Source: Brachycybe producta (Eukaryota > Arthropoda > Diplopoda > Playtdesmida > Andrognathidae). From it: a stretch of 64,000 bases of DNA. Position 1 is the first letter of the stretch; each line of letters opens with the position of its first letter. The notes beneath the pieces were generated by a model. That model was not told the DNA's origin and searched no databases. It saw nothing but the letters and a program-made list of their open reading frames with translations. Below are positions 268 through 60,692 of this stretch, one piece after another. The position numbers and the translations under genes were made by a program. Location: positions 1-64,000 of the forward strand of contig JAUPFP010000115.1 of the NCBI GenBank assembly GCA_036925085.1, in the 5' to 3' direction.

Positions 268-395
268 AGCAGACGACATTTTTTTTAATATATTTAAAAC
301 GTTTATTTTGAAATATATCAACATGAAAAAAAAACATAAATGTTTGAGCTACTCTTCTAGTTTCTAAGCCACTGTCAGTTTCTCCTTATAGTTGT
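268..395. repeat. Family C palindrome, right-arm fragment
   Basis: It carries the family C landmarks GTTTATTTTGAAA, ATATCAACATGAAAA, TTGAGCTACTCTTCTAGTTTCTAA. Located downstream of the BORCS7 stop. Confidence 0.7.
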
Positions 396-499: not shown

Positions 500-1741
500 T
501 CATTGTTGAATTTGACTGAGCTGGTCCTTCACTTTGTCAATAACTTCAGCACTAAAAATAGAAAATCAAAACATAAAAGTATAAACAGTTTAAGCTCCTC
601 AAACTCTTAATTATTCTAAATATAAAATATCTTTGGAGAGCAAAATTAAAGGAAATTTGATATTATTAAATATTATTCTTGTCTATAAAAAAAAGTTTAT
701 TTTGAAAGATATCAACATAAAAAATACTATTAACTCATATGAAATACTATTCTAGTTTCTAACAAACTTTCAATTTTTCTGAAAAGTAAAAAAATAACTG
801 TTTGATAATCAAGCTGTTCCTAAAACAGGCAAGTAAGCGCAGTAAAATACACCAAGAGTCTGAGCGTTATACCAAATATTAACCAATTAGAAAGTACGTG
901 TGTGACGTCAGACCGAATAACAAACCAAATTACAAGTTGTTGTTCCTCATAAAAGGGGCGGGGCAAACGACTGACTGTACTTTATTGTCCTTACTTGCCT
1001 GTGTTCCTAGTGTGTGACGTCACGAATGTTTTATTCTTATTACTCAGTGATGAAACGTTATAATATACAGCACCGTTTTTACTCATTTCTTGTTTTTATC
1101 TACTTCTCACTAGACGGCGCCACATTCTATTTACAATTCGCACGAGGATTCAGAAGCGGGAAATTCTTTCTTGCCATCAAAAGTGGACGGAATCAAAGAA
1201 AAGGGAAAATAGGCCACTTCTAAAGACACTTGAATAAGGTAAAATACCTTTTCTGAATCCCATCCAGTCTGTAAACAAGTTAAAAAAATAGTTAGCAATA
1301 ATTTAGCTATTTTAAATAGTGAAATATACTCGAAACTTACTGAATTTGCATATGAGTGGTCAGTAGGGTCATTCGTTTCAGATTCTAAACCAAATAAATA
1401 CAATTAATAAGTCAATTAATGTACTAAATACAAACTGAACAGAATTTTAACCAGTTCTGAGTTCTCAATGGCATATTCCTGTAAAGCGAAATTTCTGGCC
1501 GTATGCATCAAAATCTACGATCGATAATAAAGAAGAGATTAACGAGAGGACAAAAAACGGCTTAAATTTGTAATTTAGCCGCTTAGAGGACGGATCTTAC
1601 GTCGTTACATTTCGATCCACGAACGATTTGTTTAGTTAGAGATCCAACACTATTTATATTAAGCTGGATTCTTTCTGCCAATCGCAGTTTTGATTCTGCG
1701 AATAAATTTCTAGCACTCGCTCCTGATGTTGTGGTCGCCAT
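500..1741 (-). CDS. BORCS7: BORC complex subunit 7 (BORCS7) orthologue, five exons
   Basis: BORCS7 is a subunit of BORC, the complex on the lysosomal membrane that recruits ARL8 and kinesin to move lysosomes outward. Exons on the minus strand: 1741-1601 (start ATG preceded by an A-run, 47 codons), 1514-1452, 1384-1341, 1268-1248 and 551-500 (stop TGA). Every junction is GT-AG; the donors read GTAAGA, GTTAAA, GTAAGT and GTATTT. Spliced length is 321 bp, 106 residues, the same size as the human protein as I remember it. The match runs end to end: MATTTSGASAR (human MATGTPESQAR), LTKQIVRGSK (LTKQVLKGSR), ARNFALQE (ARNMVLQE), LKRMTLLTTHMQ (LRKMAIITTHLQ), IQK, and a C-terminal DQL. No stop or frameshift is seen, so it looks functional. 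The first three introns are 67-86 bp; intron 4 (696 bp) holds a MITE and a palindrome fragment. No membrane segment is visible. Identity is very likely; UTR limits are not determined. Confidence 0.93.
585..790. repeat. Family C fragment in BORCS7 intron 4
   Basis: Contains AAAGTTTATTTTGAAAGATA, TCAACATAAAAAATACT and TTCTAGTTTCTAA in family order. With the MITE at 825 it accounts for the excess length of intron 4 over the other three introns. Confidence 0.7.
825..1002. mobile_element. hAT-like MITE, GGGCGGAG family (family B), in BORCS7 intron 4
   Basis: The ends are ACAGGCAAGTAAG and CTTACTTGCCTGT. Flanks are gttcctaaa (816-824) and gttcctagt (1003-1011), a 9-bp target duplication with two mismatches. 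The interior has TGACGTCAGAC and GGGGCGGGGC, as in other family B copies. An 8-9 bp duplication points to the hAT superfamily. Confidence 0.8.
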
Positions 1742-4693: not shown

Positions 4694-4931
4694 GGGGTTC
4701 CCAATACAGAAATAGTCATAAAATTGTGACAATCATACCGTGTGATGTTACAGCTTATGTGCTATATTTTAAGACTATTACATTATGATGTACACCAGTC
4801 AATGGCAGTCATATGATAATATTTGTCATAATAATATTTTGTAGTTTGCTTTTACTATTACAAGGTTATGAGCTAGATATGACAATTTACTGTGATATGA
4901 GTGTCTTATTTTATTTTTCTAATGAGGCTCC
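4694..4931 (+). mobile_element. Family D element, copy 2 of a tandem pair
   Basis: Same order of landmarks: CATAAAATTGTGACAATCAT, TACACCAGTCAATGGCAGTC, AATATTTGTCATAATAATAT, TGAGCTAGATATGACAAT, ending TTTTTCTAATGAGGCTCC. It follows copy 1 directly, in the same orientation. Confidence 0.7.
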
Positions 4932-5387
4932 AGAGTTTTAGATGAAGTTTTGGTCGCTGTATTTAGTTCTGACCCCTGGGTTTGTTTGTGTCTCGGCTTT
5001 TGAGTGTGTGGTCCACCTTTTCCATGTGTTTTTTTTTGTGTTAGTTAAACAACCTTAAAAATGCATTTAAATTTGTATTTTTATATTTTTCTAAAAAAAA
5101 AAAATAGGAGGAGGAGGAGGAGGTTGATCCATGTAACATTTTTTTTGCTGTTGTTTTGGGTCAGACAACCTTGAAATGCAAGTGATGAATAAACAATTAC
5201 AATACAATTGTTTAAGAATCGAATCACGGGGTCGTCAAGTGTCGTGAAACGACGACGACGTCAGTTCTCTTCCATGTCATTGATTTTTATCTTTTCAAGT
5301 TTTACATGTTTACTGACTACAACTAATCGATACACATACTGATTTCATCACAACACACAATTTAGGTGCAACAAAATAAGGCTTTTA
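4932..5387. other. Spacer with simple repeats and a small CpG patch
   Basis: A GGAGGAGGAGG run lies at 5105-5123. At 5222-5268 is a CpG-containing patch with GTCGTGAAACGACGACGACG, partly self-complementary. On the minus strand an ATG at about 5278 opens only 18 codons. No gene supported. Confidence 0.4.
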
Positions 5388-5487
5388 AAAGATAGTTTTT
5401 CTTAAGTGTAAAACTCCTTTCTTAAATCTTTTGTTATTCTGTCTTTCGGAAGAAACTAGAAGGGTAATTAACTCAATCACTAAAAGG

Positions 5488-5692
5488 ACAGGCAATTAGA
5501 AATCGGGACGAACAGAAGTTGGCTCCGCCTTTTTTATGACAAACGCAACTACTAATTGGTTGGTTATGTAGTCTGCAGTCACATGCTCCGCCCTTTTCAA
5601 CGTCGAACCACACAATAAACCAATTAGAAATTGCTGGTCGTCATAAAAAGGGCGGAGCAAACTTCTGTTTGTCCCGATTTCTAATTGCCTGT
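5488..5692. mobile_element. hAT-like MITE, family B, exact 8-bp target duplication
   Basis: Ends ACAGGCAATTAGAAATCGGG and CCCGATTTCTAATTGCCTGT are perfect inverted repeats. Flanked by ctaaaagg on both sides (5480-5487, 5693-5700). Inverted arms include GAAGTTGGCTCCGCC. The 71-codon open frame inside (minus) is a by-product of the palindrome. Confidence 0.95.
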
Positions 5693-5716
5693 CTAAAAGG
5701 TGTGTTTTCATGTTTA

Positions 5717-5871
5717 TGTTACTGTCAAACTGCTGAATGAGTCAAAATGCAGATTGCCTAGGCAATCTGCAAAACAACCAACCTGCTAGTGAGTCTGCAA
5801 AATTCAATACATTTTAGGTATTGAATTTTTGCAGATTTCCTAGTAAAAGCAGTTTGCAGATTGTAAGTAAT
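5717..5871. mobile_element. Family E MITE with a perfect 24-bp palindrome
   Basis: Starts TGTTACTGTC and shares ACCAACCTGCTAGTGA, TCTGCAAAATTCAA and TTGAATTTTTGCAGAT with the copy at 13695. Its left arm holds a perfect 24-bp palindrome at 5748-5771 centred on CCTAGG, not found in the other copy. Confidence 0.75.
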
Positions 5872-5995
5872 ATTTATATATTTTAAAATAAGCTTTTTTA
5901 TGGCACTTTAAAAATGACAAAATTTAAAACAGATGCCATTGACTGATTGAGCTACTCTTCTAGTTTCTAAAACACTTTTAAGTTGTCTTAAGATA

Positions 5996-6250
5996 AATTT
6001 ATAAACAGCTGATTTTTGAACTATCAAAAATTAAGAAAAACTAGAAATTGTTTTAGAAACTATAAGGGGTAAACTCAAGTCAATTTTAAGAGTAAATTTT
6101 CATGTTATCTTTCAAAATAAACTTTTTCTAAGTTGGGGGGGTAATTTTCGAACTTACATAAACATCTCATTTTAAAAAGATATCAACATAAAAATACTCT
6201 TGAATGATTGAGCAACCCATCTAGTTTCTTAAAACAAATTTGGTTATAGA
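5996..6250. repeat. Family C palindrome copy, alternative terminus
   Basis: Starts with the second terminus type, ATAAACAGCTGATTTTTGAACT, then GTTTTAGAAACTATAAGGGG and mirrored arms ending GAGCAACCCATCTAGTTTC. The two terminus types suggest subfamilies. Confidence 0.75.
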
Positions 6251-6709
6251 CCAGTGAAATACAGAAGTAGGCTTATTATATTTTATTATTTTTTTTTAAA
6301 TTTCATTTCAGTTAAAATGTGAACTCCAAAAATGTGAAAGTTAAAAAAAAGTGAAATGGCTCTTTTATTAAACGGTCAATAATTGCAAGCAACTCACCTT
6401 CAAGGTAAAGAAAAACCTTTAAATTTTATTTTTTTTAAAGTTATTTTTAAAATTATTCAGAAAAAACTGTCTGCTTTTATGTAAAAAGTATATAGAGAAA
6501 GAGGAGAGGGGATGCTGTTGTGTGGACTACAATACCTTAAAAAATGGATGTTTTTGTTCAAAAAAAACAAAACCAAAAATCCCCTCTTCACCTGTTTAAA
6601 ATAGGTATAAAAAAGTCCATTAAAACGTAAAAAAAGCTATTCAAAGAAATGTTTAAGTATGGAGGGGAGACTGATTTTTTTTTTTTACATATTTTTGTTT
6701 TCATACTAA
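6251..6709. other. A+T-rich DNA without recognised features
   Basis: T- and A-tract-rich sequence. The 77-codon minus frame at 6588-6821 is lysine/phenylalanine-rich low complexity, not a gene. Confidence 0.45.
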
Positions 6710-7506
6710 GGCCCTGTTTCCACTTGATGAAAGTCATTAAATCGTAAATGTTTGAACTGAAGAAAAACGGTTGTTGTGAAAATCTGCTCTGAAGAAAAAA
6801 TAACAGTTGTGAAATTTTCAACCTAAGAAAAACGGACTGTTTACTGTTGTGAAATCAATTAATGCATTTCCTTTAGTTGGACAATTATTAGGAAAAAAAA
6901 AAAGGAATTCGTTAAGAGAGTACAAATGTGGCTCTCGCCTATACACTATTAAGGTTTTGTTTATTATGTTAGGTTAATTGAGAAAACCCCTATCGCCCTA
7001 CCACTTTTAACTAAAACCATAAATTGTCATTTTTCTTCAATATTTTACATTGAAAACGTGTTATTCAGAGGTAAAGCAATATAGTTAAATCTTCCATACA
7101 TCTAATTAAATTACATTATATTTCCTGAAGTTATGAATAACTGAAGGAATGGGTAAATTAGAACCTTACCAATACCAACGTGAAATCTAAAAATGGTGGT
7201 CAGAATAACCCTCACAATGGTCACCCCAATTTAAATAAGGCCTTAAAGTAAGGTCATTTTCAAATTTACATAAAAAAAACTTATTTTGAAAAGATATCAT
7301 GAAAGATATCAACATGAAAATACTTTAATTCATTGCGCTAGCTACTCTTCTAGTTTCTAAAGCACATTGAGGTTTATCTCCATTTTGTACCTAAAACAGA
7401 ATAATCATAGTTTGAGTGGCGTTTATATTTTAAAACGACCTAAATTTTGTGATTTTTCTAGTTTAAGCCATTTTCACCCTCATTTTTGTCAAGCGGAAAC
7501 AGTGCC
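6710..7506. mobile_element. PIF/Harbinger-like element with nested repeats
   Basis: Termini GGCCCTGTTTCCACTTGA and TCAAGCGGAAACAGTGCC are inverted, flanked by taa (6707-6709) and tta (7507-7509). These fit a TWA target duplication only loosely. The interior holds a relic of the 7699 family (CACCCCAATTTAAATAAGGCC near 7222) and a family C arm (7245-7445). A composite or a large decayed element; moderate confidence. Confidence 0.5.
7245..7445. repeat. Family C right arm, nested
   Basis: GATATCAACATGAAAATACT, GCTACTCTTCTAGTTTCTAA, ACAGAATAATCATAGTTTGA and GGCGTTTATATTTTAAAACGACC in family order. GATATCA is duplicated locally. Confidence 0.75.
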
Positions 7507-7698
7507 TTAAACAAATTTAGGAGATTGATGAAAGTTTGGATTTTTTTGTGTTTTTACTGAACAAAAGCAATTTTTTTCTTACAAATTTCACTGTGTCTAT
7601 CTTCTTCTCCCTTCAACTTTTTTTTTACAATGTGTTTAAAATAATTATGAAACTACCCCGCAAACATTACATTTTGATAAAATGTTCAAGAACATTTA

Positions 7699-7862
7699 GG
7701 CCTTGTTTCCATTGGGGTGAAAATTTGAACTTTTTGGTGAAAAATAGAACAAACGTGGCCTTTGCCAATGATAGTGAATGGGCAGGGGTCACGTTTCTTC
7801 TATTTTTTAACCAGTTGAAATTTTCAAAAAGTTCTAATTTTCACCCCAATCGAAACAAGGCC
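7699..7862. mobile_element. PIF/Harbinger-like palindromic MITE (TTA duplication)
   Basis: Ends GGCCTTGTTTCCATTGGGGT and ACCCCAATCGAAACAAGGCC (one mismatch) are inverted and flanked by TTA on both sides (7696-7698, 7863-7865). Arms continue GAAAATTTGAACTTTTTGG. Length 164 bp. The 111-codon plus-strand frame across it (7536-7871) is spurious. Confidence 0.85.
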
Positions 7863-8114
7863 TTAAGGTAAAACTGAGCTCGTATTTTTTTTTTAAAAAA
7901 TCATATTCCTTAACGCATAACTGGCCACATCAGTCATTGTTTTAAGCCACGTAAACATTAAGAGGCTACATCCCAAAATTATTTCGAAAAATCGCCTCAA
8001 GGACCACTAGCATAATTTTTTTTTTACATTGATGTGATTTTGATAATTTTATTGCTCTTCCATAGAGAGGCTCTTGCAATTATCACCCTGTCTGTAGGCT
8101 TTAGTGATTTTGGT

Positions 8115-8215
8115 AATTCTAGTTTCTAAAAACAAACACTTTCTTGTTTCTCTTGATTTTGTTCCTGGAAGACAGAACAATCCAAGTGTTTGAAAATAAA
8201 CCAACTTAAAGTTGC
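8115..8215. repeat. Family C right-arm fragment
   Basis: TTCTAGTTTCTAAAAACA, CTTGTTTCTCTTGATTTTG, TGGAAGACAGAACAATCCAA. Confidence 0.65.
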
Positions 8216-8653
8216 TTCTGAAAGAAAGAAAAAAATGTTCACAAGGTCCTGCAACTGTGTGTTAGCAAATTTACTTATATTTTTTCTCACAGTTTCTATT
8301 TTAATTCAAAGACCCTTTTTAACTGAAAAATCCTCCTGAGATTTTGCCCTGAGCTACTTTGAATTTATTAGAGACACTTCCTTTCACAGCCATTTTTTTA
8401 TCTTTTCTTTATGAAAATTGTTGGATTCACTATAAGTAATAAAGGGGAGTATATTTCTACTTAGGAGGAGGTGGTGGCCCTGGTGGGGGGATATTTGTGA
8501 TTTCCTGCGTCTAGTGTTCCCCCCTTTTTCCTGTAATATGGTAATTGGTGACTGAAAACCATTTCCATAATTTCAAACAAAACGTTTAGAAATGTGTGTG
8601 AGAGATAACCGGTTAGAATATAAAAGAAGGTGAAATACACAAATACTACAATT

Positions 8654-8966
8654 AGAGCTCGGATTTGTATGCTGTATCAAGCAAATGTTTCTCAATTTGT
8701 GTCCCTTAAGTGCCAAGTGTCAAGTAATCATCATTATCAACACAACTGCAGTTATGTTTTTGTGTTTTTTTTTCTAATCAAAAAAGCTGGATGGAGGCTA
8801 TATGTTTCTGGTTACTATGAGCTAGAGTTCTAGCTTCTAATCAGTCTTCTTGATTTCAAAAAAAAATCGTTGCTTGATCTAAATGGGGAATTGTTTCTTT
8901 ATAATATTGGCCCTTGAACCATAGCTTGAGAAACATTTGCTTGATATTGCATAAAAATCCTAGCCC
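8654..8966. mobile_element. Family A MITE, near full length
   Basis: Starts GAGCTCGGATTTGTATGC and ends inversely GCATAAAAATCCTAGCCC. Contains CAAGCAAATGTTTCTCAATT and the mirrored TTGAGAAACATTTGCTTGAT. Length about 313 bp. The 67-codon frame at 8630-8833 is inside it and is not a gene. Confidence 0.85.
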
Positions 8967-9728
8967 GAACTATATAATATAATATCAAAATAGGTTATAT
9001 TTATTTGTGTGTTAGCATAACAAAAGAAAAGTGAAACATGTTTTTTGTTGTTGTTTTGTAGTCAATTTCGAATATATTTAACCGTAGTTAATGTGCATTA
9101 ACATGTATTTCTCATTTTATATGTTTGTGTGTCTGTGTGGTCTCACAAAAAGAAAAAAAAAAGAATGGAATTCCATGTGAGCAGATGTGCGTGTTTGTGT
9201 GTGTGTATTCTATGATTATCCATCTGTCATGTCAGATATGAACATGTTGCCCGAAAAGTTGTTTGTATCTTTACAACAACAACAAAAACTGTCCATCTAT
9301 TTATGAAGTTTTTCTTTAGATGTGAATAATTTGTAGTTTACATACAAAGTCAATAAAGAACACACACACATGCATATACTGTATGTATCTTTATCTTCAA
9401 AGTGGGAAAAAACAGTCATTCTGCGCAAAGCACTAGTCAGTGTGCACAACCACCAATTTGCAAGTAAAGGTTAACATATGCCTATTCGCTTTTTTTTATA
9501 TAGAAAGCTGCTTGTTTGACTTTGCTTTAAGATTTAAACCATCAAAGTCAATACTGCATATTAGTGTCAAAATCTAGCTGCTATCATATGCTACTGTCGT
9601 AACCAGCTTGTATTGCCCTTTATTTGATTGGTTACTTTGTTTTCAACCCTATGACCTATGAAATGCTGCAAATATATAACCAAATTAATGGATACTTCAA
9701 TAAGCAAGCTTGAAGCAGTTTGCCTTTA
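8967..9728. other. Spacer with TG-rich microsatellite, no gene
   Basis: (TG)-rich tracts near 9120-9210 and CA near 9361-9370. A 34-codon open stretch near 9618-9715 has no start and no splice support. Confidence 0.4.
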
Positions 9729-10105
9729 GGGTAGGTTTATACTCCAAACTTTGCTAAGATTTGCAAGCTTTGAAGCTTCTAAAAATTAGCTCCCCAAAGC
9801 TTAGCTTGTTCATAGAAACATGTGGTTTTGGAAGCATCACTGCATTTTATAACCTTTATACCCTATAAAACAGATATACGAAATAATAGAACCCATGCCC
9901 TTCTGGAAGAAAAAAGAGTGTGAATGGTTCACCCCATTTGTGCATCTGTTTCATGATTGGCGCTTTGAGTTGATAAGCTTCGAAAAGTTGAACAATTTTA
10001 AAGCTAGCTTCATGCTCTGGCGAAGACAAAAATCTGAAGCTCTGACGTTAATTTTGAAGTTTTGCAGGCTGCTTTGCCGCTTAGCAAGGGAGTATAAACC
10101 AAGCC
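9729..10105. mobile_element. PIF/Harbinger-like MITE (TTA duplication)
   Basis: Ends GGGTAGGTTTATACTC and GAGTATAAACCAAGCC are inverted, flanked by TTA (9726-9728, 10106-10108). Subterminal CTTTGCTAAG / GCTTAGCAAG are also inverted. Length 377 bp. The 82-codon plus frame beginning at 9895 lies mostly in it and looks incidental. Confidence 0.8.
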
Positions 10106-26880: not shown

Positions 26881-27975
26881 TTACAATTAGTACTCTGCAA
26901 GCAGCCAAATAGGCCTATGGCAAAGGGACATAAAAGTCCACATGCAGCATTAAGCATTGTCAAGCACATATACATGCACATATATAAAACAAAATGAATA
27001 TACAAATGTCAATTCCACAAAACAAAATTATCCCCATTCACCACTGCCTCAGGAAGACAGTTCCATTGTCTTATAACTCTAGGAGAAAAAAGACCAATAA
27101 TATGAATCTGTCCTAGAAAAAATCTCCCTTATTTTCTTAGAGTGGTCAGCCCTGCCCATGTTATAGTGCTTTATGAATATCACTGGACTGTGGTTTAGGA
27201 CAATCACCCCATGTAATTTTCCAAACAATTTCAAACTTAACTCAGCCCTGCGATGTGCCAAACTATGCCATTGTAGCACTGACATCATCTCAGTGACACT
27301 ATCTGTAAATTTGTGCCTGCCACAAACAAACCTAGTGGCCTTATGCTGAACCATTTCAACTGAATGAGTGTGTGTGACAGAGTGAGGATTCCATACACTG
27401 CAGCAATACTCAAGATGAGGCCGAACCAATGCTTGATAGGCAATAGTTTTAACTTGTGCTGGGCAGGTGCCCAATGTCCTTTGACTAAAATGAAGCATGT
27501 GTAGAGCTTTCCCAGTAACACGATCAATGTGTTTTTCCAAGAAAGGTCATCTGTCATTGTAACGCCCAAGTACTTATAACACTTGACACTCCGAATAGTG
27601 TCATTCATACTATAATTGAACACAATTGGATTTCTACCCCAAGTTAGCCTCATAACACTAAACTTTCCCTCATTCAACTGAAGTTGCCATGTATTACACC
27701 ATCCCTCAATTGCCTTCAAGTCTAGAGCTAATGTTTCACATATCACATCACATATCACATATCAACCTCTTTGTAAATTAGGGTATCATCAGCAAATTGT
27801 CTACAGTTGCTGCCAACTGTGCTGCTGAGGTCATTAATAAATATCAGGAACAAAAGAGGACCCAGCACACTACCCTGGGGTACACCAAATTTAACAGCCA
27901 ACCACTCTTGAGTGAGACCCATTTACAACTACCCTTTGTTTCCTATCACTTAAGCTTTTGAATCCATAAGCTATG
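26881..27975 (-). pseudogene. CR1/L2-like non-LTR retrotransposon, 5'-truncated reverse transcriptase relic
   Basis: Reading the minus strand from 27975: a frame with [11 protein letters not shown], a frameshift, then [20 protein letters not shown] and [15 protein letters not shown], the fingers/palm motifs with the catalytic F-A-D-D. A TGATATGTGA-type tandem expansion (27730-27760) breaks the frame. It resumes WCNTWQLQLNEGK and CYKYLGVTMTDDLSW, shifts again to LVRPHLEYCCSVWNP and HSLAHRRAELSLKLFGK, then a 3' untranslated part ending in ATTGTAA-type sequence. The motif set fits the Jockey-superfamily CR1/L2 group. Three or more frame breaks make it inactive. Endonuclease and ORF1 are absent because of 5' truncation. 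Confidence 0.92.
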
Positions 27976-29534: not shown

Positions 29535-30095
29535 TGGCTCACTACAGCTACCAAGGGTCACTACAGCTACCAAAAAATATAGGCCTTTTTATTTATCAAT
29601 ACGTTTAGTTTAGATTACATTCGGTTCAGTTAGGCTTCATTATGTTCGATTAGGTTTTATTAGGATCGGTAAGGTTCGGTTAGGTTTGGTTAGGATCGGT
29701 AAGGTTCGGTTTGGTTAGGATCGGTAAGGTTCGGTTTGGTTAGGATCGGTAAGGTTCGGTTTGGTTAGGATCGGTAAGGTTCGTTTAGGTTTGGTTAGGA
29801 TCGGTTAGGTTTGGTTAGTATGGGTACTTTTAGGTTAGGATCGTTAAGGTTCAGTTAGGTAAGGTTCGGTAAGATTTCATTAGGTAAGGTTCGGTTAGGT
29901 TATGGAGAAAGGGTTTTTTTTAGCTGTAGTGACGAAAAAATGATAAAAAAGGTCTATATTTTGTCCCCCTATTTTTTGGTAGCTGTAGGGACCCTTTTGA
30001 TGAACAAAAGGTCTATTAATTTTTTTGGTAGCTGTTGTGACCCAAGTAGCTGTTCTCCCCTTAGTAGCGCTTGTGAGCCTTGGTAGCTGTAGTGA
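29535..30095. repeat. Inverted and tandem GGTAGCTGTAGTGACC motifs around a pentamer array
   Basis: GGTCACTACAGCTACC occurs twice before the array (29537-29573). Its complement TGGTAGCTGTAGTGACC and variants occur at least five times after it (about 29923-30099). The whole is a large inverted structure of about 560 bp. Confidence 0.65.
29605..29905 (+). repeat. Minisatellite made of (TTAGG)-like pentamers
   Basis: Central 25-bp units TTAGG-ATCGG-TAAGG-TTCGG-TTTGG recur at 29691, 29716, 29741 and 29766, with 30-bp variants that add one more pentamer. Flanking sequence keeps the 5-bp phase (TTCGG, TTAGG, TTCGA, TTAGG). See findings. Confidence 0.85.
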
Positions 30096-50401: not shown

Positions 50402-52049
50402 GACCAAATTAACATCCCTTCACTGCTAGTATCCTCCAACTACATTACCTACAAGAAGCATTGCTAGCTAGCCTCCACCTTAAACTTTGCTTGTCGTTTC
50501 AAATGGAACACACCAATTATGGTCCACTATACAATAAGTAATTGTTGAATCATTGATGATGATGATGATGATGAATGATTATGCTTTTTTTTTTTACAAG
50601 TAAATGGTTTTTAATATTTAGCACATGTTCCAGTTAAAGGTCTAAAATCTAAATCATTATCATATTCATCGAAGATGGATGTGACTTGTCGATTTTTTCT
50701 GCTATTTGTCAATTTGTTCAGTGAAAAAAACAGGATATGTTTACTTGGTCCTTCCGTTAAAAATAAAAATCATTGGAAATTCCAGTGATGCTACTTTTGT
50801 TCAGTTTTTATTTTCTGTACACTTAAGTTTTTTTAATGGTCTCTCTTGAGTTGACCAGCACTTGTTTGCCCATTGGCAAATTTTTAAGTGGTGGATGAGC
50901 CATATATTTTTTAGGAATTATTGTTAAGGTGCTAACGAAAAGGAAAAAAAAAGAAGTTACAATTGGTAATTTGGTACACACACACACACAACAACTTGTA
51001 CAAGTTTGTAGAATTCCTCTTTTTAAAATTTGTACATCAACTTCAAGTTTTCTTTAAAAAAAACTAGCCTTGGCCCACTTTTTCGTTTTCTTTTTCTAAA
51101 ACAACTATAACAACTTGCTTAAGACAAAAACCATTTTAGCTGTTATATTTTTTACTTGTAGACAACTCGTATTAAATATGTACATGTAGGAAATTCCATT
51201 ATTTATCTTTAGTCTGTTGTCCTAATTTTAATGAGAATAAATAAAAAAAATTGATGAAGAAACTATTAAGACTTATTAATTCTTAATTTGCTTTTATTAT
51301 TTTAACCTTTTTTTTCTCTTTTGGTTGATTAAGAAATTTGAAGTGCTCAGTTGTTTCACTTTTTTTTTATAATCTAATTCAAAGTTTTGTGTTATGTTAC
51401 ATCATCATCAACATTATGACCCGATTTTTTTTTGTACAATTTATTTTATGTATCAATATATAAATTCTATATGTCGCTCATATTGGAATATGATTGTAAA
51501 AAAAAATATGCGCATCAGTGATTTTTTTGTGTATTTGGAGAGGAAGTGAACACACTCATGTGGCCTACACAAAATGCCCAAGTACCTCAGGCAAATGTTT
51601 CATGTAGGTCTCTTTTTTTTTTTTGAAGAAAAAATGGAAAACTACTGTATATGAGTTCAACTTTTGCAATGACACAATAGCCTTCTCTTATTCTGTAGAT
51701 TGAAGTAAATAAATCGTGAGTTTTAAAACTTCATTAGGACTGTGTTGGACCATATGTAATTTTGTTTAACAAGACTTGACAATATAATTGTATATGGCTA
51801 CATTTTGAGTGAATTTGGAACTTTTTCAAGTTCTCTTGGTTGCCCTTGTCACCTTTTAATTGGTTTACCTGGAAGAATATCACAGCAGTAGCTAAGTCAT
51901 AAAAGTTTTACCAAAGGAAAGTCGTAAAAATTGACATCTTGTAAATAAAATCAGTGTACTTTGTTGTTTGTACAAAGGTTATATTTCGAAGTGAATTAGC
52001 TGAAGTTTTAGGTAGAAAACATCACTAAACTATTTTTGTCATTCTGCGT
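50402..52049. other. A+T-rich spacer, GAT microsatellite
   Basis: (GAT)n at 50554-50573; CA at 50977-50989. No gene or dispersed repeat recognised. Confidence 0.4.
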
Positions 52050-52268
52050 TTTAGAACTCAGAAACAATATTAACATTGTTTTAAGAACTATGCTGATATC
52101 TTTAAAAATTACCTTTTTATGAACCAAAAATTGAAAAAATAATGCCATAAAAAGTTTATTTTTTTTAAGAGATATCAACATGAAAAGGCTCTAATGTAAT
52201 TCAATTACTTTTCTAGTTTCTAAAACATATTCAAGTTTTTCATAATGTTGTTTATGGGATGTAGAATA
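52050..52268. repeat. Family C palindrome copy
   Basis: GTTTTAGAACTCAGAAACA, GATATCTTTAAAAATTACC, GATATCAACATGAAAAGG and TACTTTTCTAGTTTCTAAAA. It abuts a family D copy, as at 4497. Confidence 0.7.
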
Positions 52269-52269
52269 A

Positions 52270-52535
52270 CCAGGGCGGTTATTACAGAAAGTTAATAAGA
52301 CTATCATATCACAGTAAATTGTCATTTCTAGCTCATAACGTTATAACAGTTAAAACATATTATTATGACAAATATGTTCATATGACTGCCATTGACTGGC
52401 GTACAGAGTACTGTGACATAAAATGAGTCATGAAAGAGTCATAAAATAATAGCGCATAAGGAGTGGCACCTATGGTAAGGTGCGATTGTCACTATTTTAT
52501 GATTTTTTTTTTCTGTTATGAAGCGCCGGAGTTTT
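52270..52535 (-). mobile_element. Family D element, copy 4, inverted
   Basis: Minus-strand order: AATCATAAAATAGTGACAATC, GCCAGTCAATGGCAGTCAT, ATTTGTCATAATAATATG, TGAGCTAGAAATGACAATTT. Again adjacent to family C. Confidence 0.75.
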
Positions 52536-53449
52536 AGGGACATTCCCAGTTTAAACTACACTTAAGTTACAACTTGGTACAGCTAAATTGGAAATGGTCA
52601 ATTCTTAAAAAAAAATAATGCTAAACTAAACAACTAAAAGACACAAACAACTAAAACTAACGACTCTGTACTTAAACCCAAATTAATGTTCTTTTAGGAC
52701 ATGTTTTACTTTAAATGGCTAAAATGTGGTAAAATTGAAAATAATTTTTTGACGAATTTCTTGAATCACATTAATAGTTAAATTTGTAATAAGATTTCAT
52801 AATTTTAGTTTAGATATTTGTAGATAAGTTCATCTAAGTGTTAGAATGTCAATTTTGAATTGCAAATTACAATGCTATAAAGATTCAAATTGATTGATCA
52901 AATTAAGAGATTTTTCATTTGATTGCACTTTAGTTACAGGGTGAATATCCTAAGCTCGAGAAAAAAAAAGCAGTTCTAATTTGATAATTACACATTTTTT
53001 TTGTCGTTGTCGTGTTTTTTTTTTTTTTTTTTTGTTGCTGCTTTTAAATTTGTTCTACTCTATCGAACGCTTTGAATTGCTTCTCTGTATTTCCTTACTT
53101 GATGTTGTGTTCGACGGATTCAGACAATTATTATTTTTATGTAATTTGTATGTAAAGAAGTACAGAAAAAAACAAGTAATCTTTGTGTAGTTTGCACTTC
53201 TTAATAAAAGAAAAATTGCGCGTAGAGTCTGCATGTTTTATTAAAATTTTGCATTTGAAATTTTGAACGTGGCCTTGATTGAAGCAATAAGTTTGTTTGA
53301 ATCATTTGCATAAGATAAATTAAATCAAATCAAATGGGATTCTGATAGATATATCCTGTATTGAACTTTTTTATTGTTGAAGATTTCGTTATTATTATCA
53401 TTGCACGCATTTGAGAAGGTCGTTTTTTTAGTAATAATATGCTCGCATT
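52536..53449. other. A+T-rich spacer
   Basis: No gene. CTAAACTAAACAACTAAAA-type sequence at 52621-52640 echoes (inverted) the TTTAGCT-rich duplication at 17143. Confidence 0.35.
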
Positions 53450-54215
53450 GCTTTCAAAAGTGCAAAATCAATCATTTCGCGAAATCACTAGTCACTTTGC
53501 GAATTCACTGAATTTTGGTAGTAAATCATTGCATTGACTACAATTTTATGCAATTTTCAGAATGCCTACATTGTAGATCAACAAGATTATCTAGATAATG
53601 CTTGACAACATTTTGTGGATTATCTTGTTGTTTTGTATATCATGTATAATCAGTAGAGCTCATATTTTAATTGCAATATCAAGCCAATGTTTCTCAATAT
53701 GTGGCCCAAGTGCCAAATTGTGTTTTTTTTTTCTCAATTAAAATCACTGGTTCTCTCTAGAAGCTGGAACTTTAGTTGACAACTGATAGTAAGTAACCAG
53801 ACAACTTGTCTCTAACTAGCCTAATGATGATGATTACTTCACAATTGAAAAACATTTGTTTGCTATTGCAACCAACAGTGAAGTACTAATTAATTACAAT
53901 TAAATTAATAAATTCTATAAATAAATTAAAAAAGCAACATTTTTAAAAGTCAATCTAGAAACACGCGTCTTACAATAATCAGAAGTAGTTAACGCAAGTT
54001 TCGAGTAGTTTGATAACGAAAATACAAAAATAAAACACAAAAAGTAATTTAATAAGTAATTTAAAATTAATTGCATTTTGCATTTGAAAAGGCATTTAAT
54101 TACGCTAAAAACTAGTCAATATATTGATTGACTACCAATGTGGTGGTTTTGCAAAGTGACTAGTGAATCAGTGAATTTGTTGATTGACTGATTTTTCATT
54201 TTAACAAGTTGTATA
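53450..54215. mobile_element. Inverted-repeat element with nested family A MITE
   Basis: AAATCACTAGTCACTTTGCG at the left mirrors TTTTGCAAAGTGACTAGTGAA at the right, with GGTAGTAAATCATTGCATTGACTAC-like inner arms. The family A copy at 53655 lies inside. Distantly like family E (GATTCACTAG). Confidence 0.55.
53655..53870. mobile_element. Family A MITE, truncated at right
   Basis: GAGCTCATATTTTAATTGCA, CAAGCCAATGTTTCTCAATA, TGTGGCCCAAGTGCCAA; right half shortened, ending TGAAAAACATTTGTTTGCTA. Confidence 0.75.
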
Positions 54216-55238
54216 TATTGATTGCATTTTTACATGATTTGAATTTGATACAAGTTGCGTGAGATTTGTTATTATTTTTTTTTTTCTGTCTTCGTAACAA
54301 ATCGATTGTGGGACATGCGTAGAATAGGCCATTTCCTCTCTAGAGAACATTTCTAGTTTTTTATTTTGGTGTTTTTTTTTGTGGTGGTTGTTGTTAAAAT
54401 ATATCTCTGAAGTGAGGTGTGATGAGTAAATTTCAACTCATGGCGCCCAGGATTTTTTATTTTTATTTTTCAAAGGTGTTTTCAGTTCCAATATATTGTT
54501 TCACACAGTGGGAGATTCTTTTTTTAATGAATCACGAAAAATATTAACTTCCAAAAAGTTATTTTTTATTGCACGAAATAAATTATTAAATATTAATATT
54601 AGATTGAGGGTTATTTGACGTTTTGACCTCCACATGTAGTTGGGGGGTCTTCAAAGCTTTTTTTTTTTTGGTTTTCGAATGAAAAATGCTTTAAAGGTGG
54701 TGAATTTTTTTTTTGTGGGCCATAATTTGAAGATCCTTGTGGTAAAGAATGGCAAAAAATGAGTAGTGTTTTTTTTTCTCTCTTCTGAATTCCATAAATT
54801 TCTTTTAAATATTATACCAGTAAGTATTATAACCTTGTGATTAATGGCCATTATTATCAGAAACATATAACAAACTTTTCATTTTTTTTTTTGTCTCATC
54901 CACCTCATTAATTTTTTTTGTTATTGAACCCATCTGTAATTAAGAATGGCTTCAAAAGTAATTTTTAGGTATTCAAAGTGAAAGTAAAAATATTTTTTAG
55001 AAGTAGCATGAGAGTAAATTTAACTTTAAAACTTATTTTAAAAAAGTATTTGAGTTTAATTTGATTAATTACTCTGAAAGAGCTAGCACAGAGAGAGCCT
55101 GTGGCATAAGGACTATTTAGTCCAAAAGTAGCGTTAAAATTAAAATGGATTGTCAAAAATAAGGTTTTATCATCTACTATAATGATATAACAATTATGCC
55201 ATGCAAATTTTAAATTTAGTTGAATGGCATCATTAGTG
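54216..55238. other. A+T-rich spacer
   Basis: A GACTAAATAGTC-like core with flanks shared with 22647 occurs near 55105-55125 in inverse orientation, otherwise nothing. Minus frames of 71 and 113 codons here are K/F/N-rich noise. Confidence 0.35.
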
Positions 55239-55420
55239 AGGCTCGGATTGTAATGCAATATCAAGCAAATATTTCTCAAGGCTCCTCCTAGAAATCTAGT
55301 TGTCAACTGATAGTAACTAGACTTCTAGCCTTTAACCAGCCTTTATGATTAGAAAAAAAAAGCATAATTGGAGTTGTTATAATGATCATGATTACTTCGC
55401 ATTTGGACTTGCATAAAATC
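55239..55420. mobile_element. Family A MITE, internally deleted
   Basis: GAGGCTCGGATTGTAATGCA, CAAGCAAATATTTCTCAAGG, then a jump to CTAGTTGTCAACTGATAGTA and the right arm ATGATTACTTCGCATTTGGA. Confidence 0.75.
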
Positions 55421-55489
55421 ATTAATAATTTGTAAACTTTTAAGTTAAATAGCTAAGTAACCTGAAGAAAAAAAATCAAAATGACGTAG

Positions 55490-55710
55490 TAACTAGAATA
55501 GTAGAAAAATATGCTGACAGTATTTTTATCTTCAAGATATGTTTCGAAATTTTTTTTTTTTTTTTTTTGCTACATCACGTTTTTTAAAAATGATTTTGAA
55601 ACATTTATGACATTTAAAAAGTTTATTTTTAACATCATCATAAAAATACTTTTAATAGTATTATCATGATTATTCTAGTTTATAACAAACTTTAATTTTT
55701 TGTTTCCTTA
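55490..55710. repeat. Family C palindrome, degraded
   Basis: GTAGTAACTAGAATAGTAGA, AAAAAGTTTATTTTTAACAT and GATTATTCTAGTTTATAACA. Confidence 0.6.
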
Positions 55711-56244
55711 AAATTGGTTCTTAAAAAACAGTTTACATTCAATATGTAAATCTTTTAGTCTGAAATGAAATGTGTTAACATTTATTTTAAAAAAAATAAA
55801 GTAATGATGTGTAACTTTTGCATTAAAAAGTTTTGTAGTTAATTAACTAATGATGCCATATTTGCATATATTTTAACATGTACATAAAGCGGAAGTAATT
55901 GTTTGAGGAAGGGTTGTTATGGCTATGGGTCACTACGTCTTTTTTTTTTTCATTTACTTCCTATTTTAATGTATTTTCAGTAGATCCATAGGTTAATAGA
56001 AACCCAATTAGTGTATGTAGTGAAGTCCAACAACTTGGATAAAGTTTTCGAGTTTCAGATTTTTTAATCATGGGATTTCATTGGATTTAACAAAGAAAAT
56101 TCTCTAGAGTATTTGGGATTGAAAGTTTTATAACCTTTTTTTTGTGTGTCTGTTTCCATAGTAACTTTTTTTTACCTGTAGGCTGTAACTCTGTCTATGA
56201 ATTTATGACATTTAGATGTTGTTGTAGCTGCCTGAATCAAAGTA

Positions 56245-56865
56245 ATTTTAAAATGTCCTGCATGTCAATAATTTTATGTTGATATCTTTCAAAATAACCT
56301 TTTTGTAGACGAAATTTAAAAAAAAAAATATGTATCAAATGCCATAAAAAGCTTATTTTTAAAAAAAATATCAACATGAAAGTACTGTACTAGTGATTCA
56401 CCTAGGGACAGTTATGGCGCATTCACACTAGGCTGGTTTACCAGCTGCTGGCTGGTTGTAACCCTCTAGCAGCATAGTGTGAACTGCTACCAGCAGCTGC
56501 TTTTCCAGCAGGTTAGTGATTTTAACAGCAGCTGGTCAAGTTGAACATGTCCAACTTTAGCAGCTACCAGCTGGTCATGTGACTTCCTTCCTGCTGCTAC
56601 AAGCTAGGGTGAACCCTTTATCGCTAGTAGTGGCACTAGTGGGCAGTTGAAACTCCACTGCTTGGGTTGGTTGTTGTTAGATTTTGTGTTTTTGCAAGAT
56701 GGTGATTGGACGACTTGTGCTGCTAATATCAGCAGTGACTGGACAAGTGTGAACCCAAAGTAGCCACTTGCTTGTAGCCAGCAGCAACCAGCAGCTTGTA
56801 AACCAGCCTAGTGTGAATGCGCCTTTAATGTTCTAGTTTCTAAAAACACTTTCAAAGTTTTTCTT
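56245..56865. repeat. Family C palindrome interrupted by the 56415 element
   Basis: TTATGTTGATATCTTTCAAAATAA and ATATCAACATGAAAGTAC precede the insert. The arm resumes at ATGTTCTAGTTTCTAAAAAC and runs to CTTAAGGTAGTTTAAAAGTG. Confidence 0.75.
56415..56824. mobile_element. PIF/Harbinger-like MITE, 31-bp ends (GGCGCATTCACACTAGGC)
   Basis: GGCGCATTCACACTAGGCTG at the left is the exact reverse complement of CAGCCTAGTGTGAATGCGCC at the right, continuing to about 31 bp. TTA on both sides (56412-56414, 56825-56827). Interior is CAGCAGC/GCTGCTG-rich and the most G+C-rich repeat in the window. Length 410 bp. The high end identity implies recent insertion. Confidence 0.88.
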
Positions 56866-57165
56866 AAGGTAGTTTAAAAGTGTAAACGCCTCGTGAATGC
56901 CGATTATTCTGCCTTTCAGGTGCAAATGAAGAAAAACTTGAATGTGTTTTAGAAACTAGAAGAGTAGCTCAATCACTCTGTAAATTTGAAAAATGACCCA
57001 ATTTTAAGCATTCTCTATATAATTATTTTTTTTAAATTGTCATCTATAAAAAGTTTATTTTGAAAGATACCAACATGAAAAAGATATTAGCCTGATTGCC
57101 AGCTACCGTTCTAGTTTCTAACACACTTTTAATTTCTCTCCTGAAACACAGAGTAACCAAAGTAC
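56866..57165. repeat. Family C palindrome copy
   Basis: TAAACGCCTCGTGAATGCC, TTTCAGGTGCAAATGAAG, TTTTAGAAACTAGAAGAGTAG, mirrored AAAAAGTTTATTTTGAAAGA and ACCGTTCTAGTTTCTAAC. Confidence 0.8.
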
Positions 57166-57787
57166 AAAATTCACCTGTTAGTAAAACATCTATTTAATCC
57201 TTTGCCAGAAATGAAATCCTTAGTAAAACAATGTGCTAATATTATTGACAGTTCAAAATTTTAATGTTGTCTAGACTTTCCAGTTTGAAATTAGGATATT
57301 CTACTTGAATGCTAAACCGGTAAATATTATTTTGAAATAATTAGCATTAAAGTTAGAATAGTGAAAACCTCATTTCAAACGTTTGTTAGCAATTTATACA
57401 CAAAAAAGACACATTTTCATTACAACAGTTAAATTTTGTAATATGTTCATGTGTTGATTTTGTGTCAATTTTGTTGAAGTGGGACACACATTATTGATGC
57501 AAAATTATATCTAAACTTACTAACAATGAAGCATTACAAATTTTGATAAGATAGAATGAACTATTTTTTGATGTTGTTGTTGTAACAAATGGTTTGGACA
57601 GTTGGACACATTACAAACTGGTGACAACAATGTCTCTATATTAACATCCTGCAAAAATGTATTGAAAAAAAAAATCGATCAACAAAAATTGAGAAAAATA
57701 GAAGAAAATTAGGTATATACATTATATTGTCGTCTAATTTTTACTTTTTGTCTCAAATTTTTGATTTATCAATTAATTGAAAAAAGT

Positions 57788-58066
57788 GTTAAGGTGGTTA
57801 GCTAGTGTAAAACGCCTCTCGAAGTCTTATTTTGTCTTTCAGGTGTAAAATGAAGAGAAACTTGAACGTGTTTTAGAAACTAGAAGGGTTTCATGTTGAA
57901 AATACCTTTCAAAATAATTTTTTTTTAAAAAAAATTTGAGTTTGAAAACGACCAAATTTTAAGCCGACGACGCTTGGCGGACAATATTTTTTTTAATTTT
58001 TGTCTAGAAAAAGTTTATTTTGTAAAATGATTCAGCCACCCTTCTAGTTTCTAAATATTCTTGAAA
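57788..58066. repeat. Family C palindrome copy with left terminus
   Basis: TTAAGGTGGTTAGCTAGTGT, CGCCTCTCGAAGTCTTATTT, TCAGGTGTAAAATGAAGAG, then AAAAGTTTATTTTGTAAAAT and CACCCTTCTAGTTTCTAAA. Confidence 0.8.
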
Positions 58067-59026
58067 GACTTAAAAGGGGGTTTCTTGCACACCGTCTTAC
58101 AGAAAACGCTGATCTTCGGTGTGTTTTTTTTTCTGTAAAAAAACTGCGGAAGATTCACAGCAATATTTGACTTATTTATTGCATGGAATCTTACGAGAGA
58201 GAAAAAAATAGCCAAGTGTGATCGCAGCTTTACCAAATAGGTGTTATAACTTAACCTGTTGTATTATTCACTTCTCAATTTTATAATTTGCATTATAAAA
58301 TTACAAGACATTGTGGCCCACTTTGTACAAGTAAAATTACTTGTTATTTTTTTTTAAATACTACTTTTATTACAAAATATAAACAAAAACTGCGTGAATA
58401 GTGAAATATGGATCTTCTAACTTTTTTTTTTAAAAAAAGGTCAATATTTGAAAAACTTCCTTTTGTTATTAATTTTCATTTCTAAAAGGTGTATCTTTTA
58501 TTATTTATTGTTGGGCATGGTTGAGAAAGAAAGAAAAAAAAAATAATTTAGGCCAAATGTTGTGGGCAGTTTAAGAGTTGTGCAATATTGATTTGCATTT
58601 AACTAGATGGACATATAATATGTTAGGAAAGATGGAAAGGGTCATTGAATGAAAATCAAGTCTCTAACCCCGTTTCCTGGAATCGCCCAGTTTGAACCCT
58701 TTTTTTATATAAAGAGAAAGAAAAAAAATCAATTATCGGTTAGAAGTTTTACTTCTATGTAACTCCTATTTCGAAATTGTGTTTTAGCTTCATTTTATTA
58801 TTGATTATTAGCAACTTTGTGGGCAGGTAAGATGAATTTTTTTTGGGGGGGGGGAGGGGGTGGGCTAGAAATTTATGGTTGATTTTGTTACCATGACGAT
58901 GGAATGATTACTTGAAATAAATGCAGGACACACACACATATAACACCATTACATGTCTTTTTTATGACATATTTTATGAAGAAAATCGTTACCAATATTT
59001 TACCTTTATGAGTTTTATGTTCTACA

Positions 59027-59098
<72 letters not shown>

Positions 59099-59334
59099 GC
59101 CTAACATTTGAAGTAATCTACTACTATATGGTCTTGTGTAATCTTGTCAACAGATTTCACTTTTCCAGCTTTTTTTTTTTAGAAGTTCTAATATTTTAAG
59201 ATGAAATTCAATGTCTGTTAAAAAGTAGAAGAGTTAAAAAAATGCTTTGATTCCTAAAATTTGTCAATTTATTTGTTCCACTCATGATGATAAAAAATGT
59301 TAAGAAACGTAAAGAAGGTTTTGGATAGGACTTT
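58067..59334. other. A+T-rich spacer
   Basis: G-rich run GGGGGGGGGGAGGGGGTGGG near 58843-58863. A donor-like GGGCAGGTAAGATG at 58823 follows a short hydrophobic open stretch, unsupported. Confidence 0.35.
59033..59095. repeat. (AT)n microsatellite
   Basis: About 30 AT units, nearly perfect; potential cruciform. Confidence 0.95.
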
Positions 59335-59515
59335 GAAAACTAGAAAAGTAAATGAAACATTTAAGAGTATTTCTTAAATTAAAACTTGTTTATGAAAATT
59401 TCAGATTTTCAATTTGAGCCAAAATTCATAAGGAACAACACTAGAAACGTTTAGTTTGAACGTTATCAAACCTGCAATAAAACTATTATTTTAAAAAATG
59501 TGAATATGAAAGTAT
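59335..59515. repeat. Family C fragment, degraded
   Basis: AAAACTAGAAAAGTAAATGA, CATTTAAGAGTATTTCTTAA, then weakly mirrored sequence. Confidence 0.5.
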
Positions 59516-60381
59516 GACTTATTTAATTCTAAACTCACTATCAATTATTAATAAGAAAACTTGAGATACTAAATATCTTGGCAAAGTCTTAACTAAACAT
59601 AAGACTGTTCACTAATTGTTATTAATTTTACATCAATTTGAAACTTTCTTAATAAAAAAATTATTGTTATGAACCAACAATTTAATAATTTGTATAAATT
59701 TTCTTTTTTTTTTAAAACTATTGTCTTGTGATGTGCAAATGGGGTTCAAGAACTTAGTAAAACAACTAAATTTATTTAAATGATGCTTGTTAATTAAAGA
59801 ATTAACAAATTAAAGACCTGAATATAATTTTTGGATTATTATTAATAATTATTTAATTATTAATATATTATAAGGAGCGGAAATGAGACTTGTGAAATCA
59901 ATGCACTCATTATTATTATTTTATTAATTACGGACATATTATTCACTATTCAGCAAAAGGAAACATGATGATGATAATGATGCTGTTGGTCATCTGTTGG
60001 TGGAAGTGAAGGAGGTCATTTGGTTACAATGATTTTTTTTCCGCCCACCCACACCACCTGTCTTTAGTACATTTTTTTTTGAAAAATAAATTTAATAATG
60101 CTAGTTCAATGGTTTCTTGTCATGTTCCATTTGAATGAAATGCTGAATATGATTAATAAGAAGAAGAAGAAGAAAAAATCAACTTTCGAGCATGACGAAA
60201 TGAGCTTACAAATGGAATAATGATTTTATAATTAATTTATTAAATTTGAGAAATCAATGACTGGAAAATATTGACCATAATATATTTTTTTTTTATCATT
60301 TTTTTTTTGTTCGAACATTTTTATGTCTCATTTTTTGATATTCTGATTTTTGTTGTTACTTATTGCCTCGCTTATTGCATA
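59516..60381. other. A+T-rich spacer
   Basis: ATTATTAATAAT runs and AAGAAG at 60160-60175. A signal-peptide-like MMMIMMLLVIC reading at 59967 is microsatellite-driven. Confidence 0.4.
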
Positions 60382-60692
60382 ATACCTTGTACACACATAA
60401 GTTAAGTGAATTCAAATTAAATGTGTTTAGGTGAATTATACGGAATCCAGTTAAAGACATGAACCCAAATAAAAATTGATTTTATTATTAATATTTTAAA
60501 TTAAAATATTAAATCAATATTTTTTCAATAGTTTCTATAATATAATGTATATTATATTTAAGTATTAACTCAATATTTTGAGATTATTAACTGAATAAAT
60601 TGAATGTCACATATTGTCCATTTGCCCTTCAGAGGGCTCTGTAGAACATGTTTAATATTTAAATGCATTTAACTGTGTATGTGTGTCGAAGG
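60382..60692. mobile_element. Family F element, copy 3, with intact ends
   Basis: ATACCTTGTACACACATAAG at the left and TGTGTGTCGAAGGTAT at the right are inverted. Interior landmarks as in copy 1, including TTTGCCCTTCAGAGGGCTCT. Confidence 0.82.

Follow-up and report, generated by a model that had tools for sequence, protein, structure and literature searches.

BORC is described as a complex of eight subunits that is associated with lysosomal membranes and connects lysosomes with kinesins (PMC7478246); ARL8, a small GTPase, and PLEKHM2 act together with it (PMC11156585). In iPSC-derived neurons, as summarized in the latter source, loss of either BORCS5 or BORCS7 results in the depletion of axonal lysosomes (PMC11156585). 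In flies, BORC is termed an Arl8 activator (PMC12772503), and BLOS-8 is given as the Caenorhabditis elegans orthologue of BORCS7 (PMC12465487). The BORCS7 family (diaskedin, C10orf32; PF16088) is represented by a Pfam profile of 103 positions. The millipede protein described here has 106 residues and keeps the order of the segments of this profile, and comparison with the profile revealed no feature that would set the millipede protein apart from its family.

The window, by which we mean the whole 64,000-nucleotide stretch that was analysed, corresponds to bases 1-64000 of contig C115, which is 272,638 bp long and belongs to an assembly of 442 contigs totalling 295,300,729 bases. The minus-strand join of 1741-1601, 1514-1452, 1384-1341, 1268-1248, and 551-500 yields 321 nt that start with an ATG, run through 106 codons with no internal stop, and end with a TGA. 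Exon 1 (1601..1741, 47 codons or 141 nt, from the ATG) is followed by intron 1 (1515..1600, 86 bp), exon 2 (1452..1514, 63 nt), intron 2 (1385..1451, 67 bp), exon 3 (1341..1384, 44 nt), intron 3 (1269..1340, 72 bp), a 21-nt microexon 4 (1248..1268), intron 4 (552..1247, 696 bp), which carries repeat-like stretches, and exon 5 with the TGA stop (500..551, 52 nt). All four introns display GT-AG boundaries, and their phases, derived from the exon lengths, are 0, 0, 2, and 2. The eight splice sites of this model are all included among the 47 donor-like and 21 acceptor-like consensus-like sites listed. A possible AATAAA poly(A) signal is located on the minus strand at 302..307, about 190 nt past the stop and within repeat-like sequence, and ATTAAA motifs near the 3′ end of the gene start also at 458 and 289.

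The first-pass annotation had put forward this five-segment join as being in phase, with AG/GT-bounded exons of which none exceeds 47 codons, and all of this was borne out. It had also derived a host intron range of 67-86 bp, which describes three of the four introns but not the 696-bp intron 4 that it had omitted, and a model of host introns built on that range therefore rests on three introns of four. The concealment of the gene from open-frame listing is a matter of small exon size; exon 1 is recovered at once when either the open frames or the complete assembly is searched with the profile.

A Pfam search names a single family for the 106-residue protein, PF16088 (BORCS7), with an E value of 3.9e-35 and a score of 120.6 bits (curated cut-off, 27.3 bits). 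The alignment pairs residues 4-103 with profile positions 3-102 of 103, so that a complete frame of about 100 residues scores above the cut-off over nearly the whole profile. The sole chain found in a PDB search up to E = 1 is that of BLOC-1-related complex subunit 7, and this match is weak (E = 0.017). The assignment to a 'DUF2365-type family' made earlier has to be replaced, as the protein matches PF16088 instead; we take DUF2365 to be the former name of PF10157, which the Pfam profile search lists as BORCS6. The main claim, that an animal genome carries an intact BORCS7 gene here, is supported by the in-phase join, the PF16088 match, and the presence of the same protein in a second contig (C190, described below). 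At the level of sequence, the gene is thus confirmed as real, intact-looking, and ordinary. The best explanation, to which we assign a probability of about 0.96, is that the locus represents an ordinary BORCS7 orthologue of the source animal, a five-exon nuclear minus-strand gene predicted to be spliced to encode a 106-residue BORC subunit.

The BORCS7 region is present also on contig C190 (90,557 bp), collinear and nearly identical. The identity is 99.63% between C190 16-20000 and the start of the window, 98.8% between C190 54001-64000 and window 50571-60599, and 99.8% between the last 6.9 kb of C190 and C115 80001-86952, in a comparison that covered about 37 kb of this 90.6-kb contig. All five exons are unchanged in C190, which encodes the same protein in a complete frame. 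Within the gene, the two copies differ at three positions, one in each of introns 1-3: a 1-bp indel after 1584 in intron 1, one substitution at 1432 in intron 2, and a change at 1338 that turns the intron 3 donor from GTAAGT on C115 into GTGAGT on C190, both being ordinary donors. Intron 4 is the same in the two contigs throughout, and the resulting counts (three differences among the 225 bases that introns 1-3 comprise, and none among the 696 of intron 4 or the 321 coding bases) constitute a sample too small for a test of selection. C190 starts only 15 bases ahead of C115 (window position 1 is C190 base 16). The data suggest an assembly break, shared by the two contigs, just past the 3′ end of BORCS7.

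The simplest reading of this arrangement is that C115 and C190 represent two haplotypes of one locus. Alternatively, the two contigs could be two real loci that arose by a recent segmental duplication and carry two BORCS7 genes, as might be surmised from the presence of the gene on two contigs with the identities given above. We consider this unlikely because all compared stretches of C190, up to its last base, are collinear with C115 and because the 15-base offset between the contig starts is as expected of unpurged haplotigs. Slightly less likely again is a recently doubled locus in which both C115 and C190 carry real, working genes; if true, it would mean that a BORC subunit which is, to our knowledge, otherwise single-copy has been duplicated in this lineage.

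With two haplotypes of one locus as the preferred reading, we turn to the copy number in the rest of the assembly. A search of the 295 Mb assembly with the BORCS7 protein gave eight matches up to E = 10, four on C115 and four on C190. The PF16088 profile gave five, namely C115, C190, and three weak ones; in the control, this profile had matches in two of 14 prokaryote genomes, none of them above the cut-off. A candidate second locus at C1:4990575-4990781 (E = 0.18) was rejected because its translation is a tandem repeat; it reaches 29.3 bits, which is above the cut-off, only with frame neighbours included. The matches on C54 (18.4 bits, E = 0.48) and C2 (18.0 bits, E = 0.67) were rejected as being below the cut-off. 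The C54 match (within C54:187258-190458) sits in a 109-aa open frame of coiled-coil appearance, which is perhaps, we presume, the end of the nucleoporin Nup88. No further convincing BORCS7 locus beyond C115/C190 was found by the protein and PF16088 profile searches of the 295 Mb assembly, and the C115/C190 locus is the sole credible PF16088 member there, as would be expected of an orthologue rather than a paralogue.

The same searches bear on whether the gene could be an unused but intact-looking duplicate, a pseudogene, with the working BORCS7 located elsewhere or absent from the assembly. Its setting, amid repeats and with the end of the gene 500 bp from where the small contig C115 begins, is compatible with such an origin. 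Nevertheless, the complete open frame and all splice sites are present in both copies, the introns are retained where a processed copy would have none, and a better BORCS7 locus was not found in the assembly. We therefore regard a pseudogene as very improbable and retain the ordinary orthologue.

The contribution of individual exons was evaluated against the same profile. Stepwise addition of exons, in profile order, raises the PF16088 score from 50.4 bits for exon 1 to 82.6 with exon 2, 100.7 with exon 3, 108.1 with exon 4, and 120.6 with exon 5, which extends the match to position 102 of 103. Omission of the 21-nt exon 4 lowers the full score to 107.1 bits. Taken alone, exon 1 matches with E = 2.8e-13, exon 2 with 20.2 bits (E = 7.1e-4, below the cut-off), and exons 3-5 with 28.8 bits (E = 1.5e-6, barely above the cut-off), and the five-exon join is therefore far beyond chance. 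The 88 GT and 87 AG dinucleotides of the 1,542-base stretch would allow many joins, but a fortuitous combination of splice-like sites is vanishingly improbable in view of the whole-protein E value and these three separate matches.

At E up to 1e-5, the coding exon bases of BORCS7 are matched nowhere else in the window. In intron 4, the stretch at about 671-783 recurs, in full or in part, at 29 further places in the window (E up to 1e-4); another, at about 861-970, resembles an inverted-repeat element at 1812-2020. An inverted-repeat search of the window lists this element together with those at 2662-2864 and 822-1005, the latter lying in intron 4 with its arms at 822-851 and 976-1005. The similar palindromic element at about 2662-2864 is 93-97% identical to 36 of 37 scored places on other contigs and 86% identical to the remaining one. 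The element counts are lower bounds, as 40 of 13,922 first-look candidates were scored for a 1,451-base query that contained several repeats. This element likely belongs to a very abundant MITE-like family. In total, self-matches at E up to 1e-5 take in 14,641 of the 64,000 window bases, and the description of the contig as 'otherwise repeat-only' is therefore without support from the self-match test.

The window contains 1,031 stop-to-stop frames of at least 30 aa. A Pfam scan of the 150 longest (at least 59 aa, E up to 0.05), a selection that short-exon genes would escape, gave 11 families, of which BORCS7 (3e-13) alone is convincing; the remaining ten have E values of 0.0016 to 0.041, with one member each, in 150 scans. 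Neither a tRNA (ARAGORN, bacterial code) nor an Rfam match at the gathering score was found in the window. On the minus strand at 27082-27761, two overlapping open frames of 155 and 158 aa resemble a LINE reverse transcriptase, of which they would represent the distal part split over both frames; a reverse-transcriptase family is absent from the 11 families of the 150-frame scan. A degenerate tandem array rich in GGTTAGG-like units, reminiscent of TTAGG, is located at 29623-29901. Long TTAGG arrays occur in the assembly (499 overlapping matches of a 30-base pattern in the forward and 7,180 in the reverse orientation; the reversed control had 3 and 0, respectively) and presumably fit the arthropod telomere type. 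In C1:1-10000, positions 1-300 and 4801-5000 read N, and CCTAA repeats fill 5001-10000; this stretch is a telomere-type array beside what may be a gap.

Profile searches for the seven partners of BORCS7 in BORC found four of their families above the respective cut-offs in the assembly, each as exon-like pieces: LOH1CR12/BORCS5 (5.1e-15; control matches in one of 14 genomes, none above the cut-off), BORCS8 (1.6e-16; none of 14), KxDL (3.5e-13; none of 14), and GCN5L1/BLOS1 (1.6e-13; one of 14, none above the cut-off). The BORCS8 match is listed with stops in its stretch, which come after the matched exon-like piece; the stretch listed for KxDL has stops inside it. BORCS6 (PF10157) gave two adjoining matches, 1.5e-4 and 3.8e-4, both below the cut-off, with control matches in two of 14 genomes. 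With the Snapin/Pallidin profile, 16 matches were obtained; all are weak, some fall within long open frames, and none is a clear orthologue. Since this profile also matches five of the 14 control genomes (none above the cut-off), its hits carry little weight, and the translation around the best of them revealed nothing decisive.

The transcription, splicing, complex membership, and function of the millipede gene are inferred, and the same role as in the systems described above would follow from its orthology to BORCS7. By analogy with mammalian cells, worms, and flies, its product would join BORC on lysosomes, where the complex would work with the small GTPase Arl8, and BORC and Arl8 together would couple lysosomes to kinesins. 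The finding means little beyond annotation. A short gene with small exons, found here only on two small contigs, nonetheless readily escapes a listing of open frames or an analysis restricted to large scaffolds, and in this animal a BORCS7 overlooked in this way could be mis-scored as lost.
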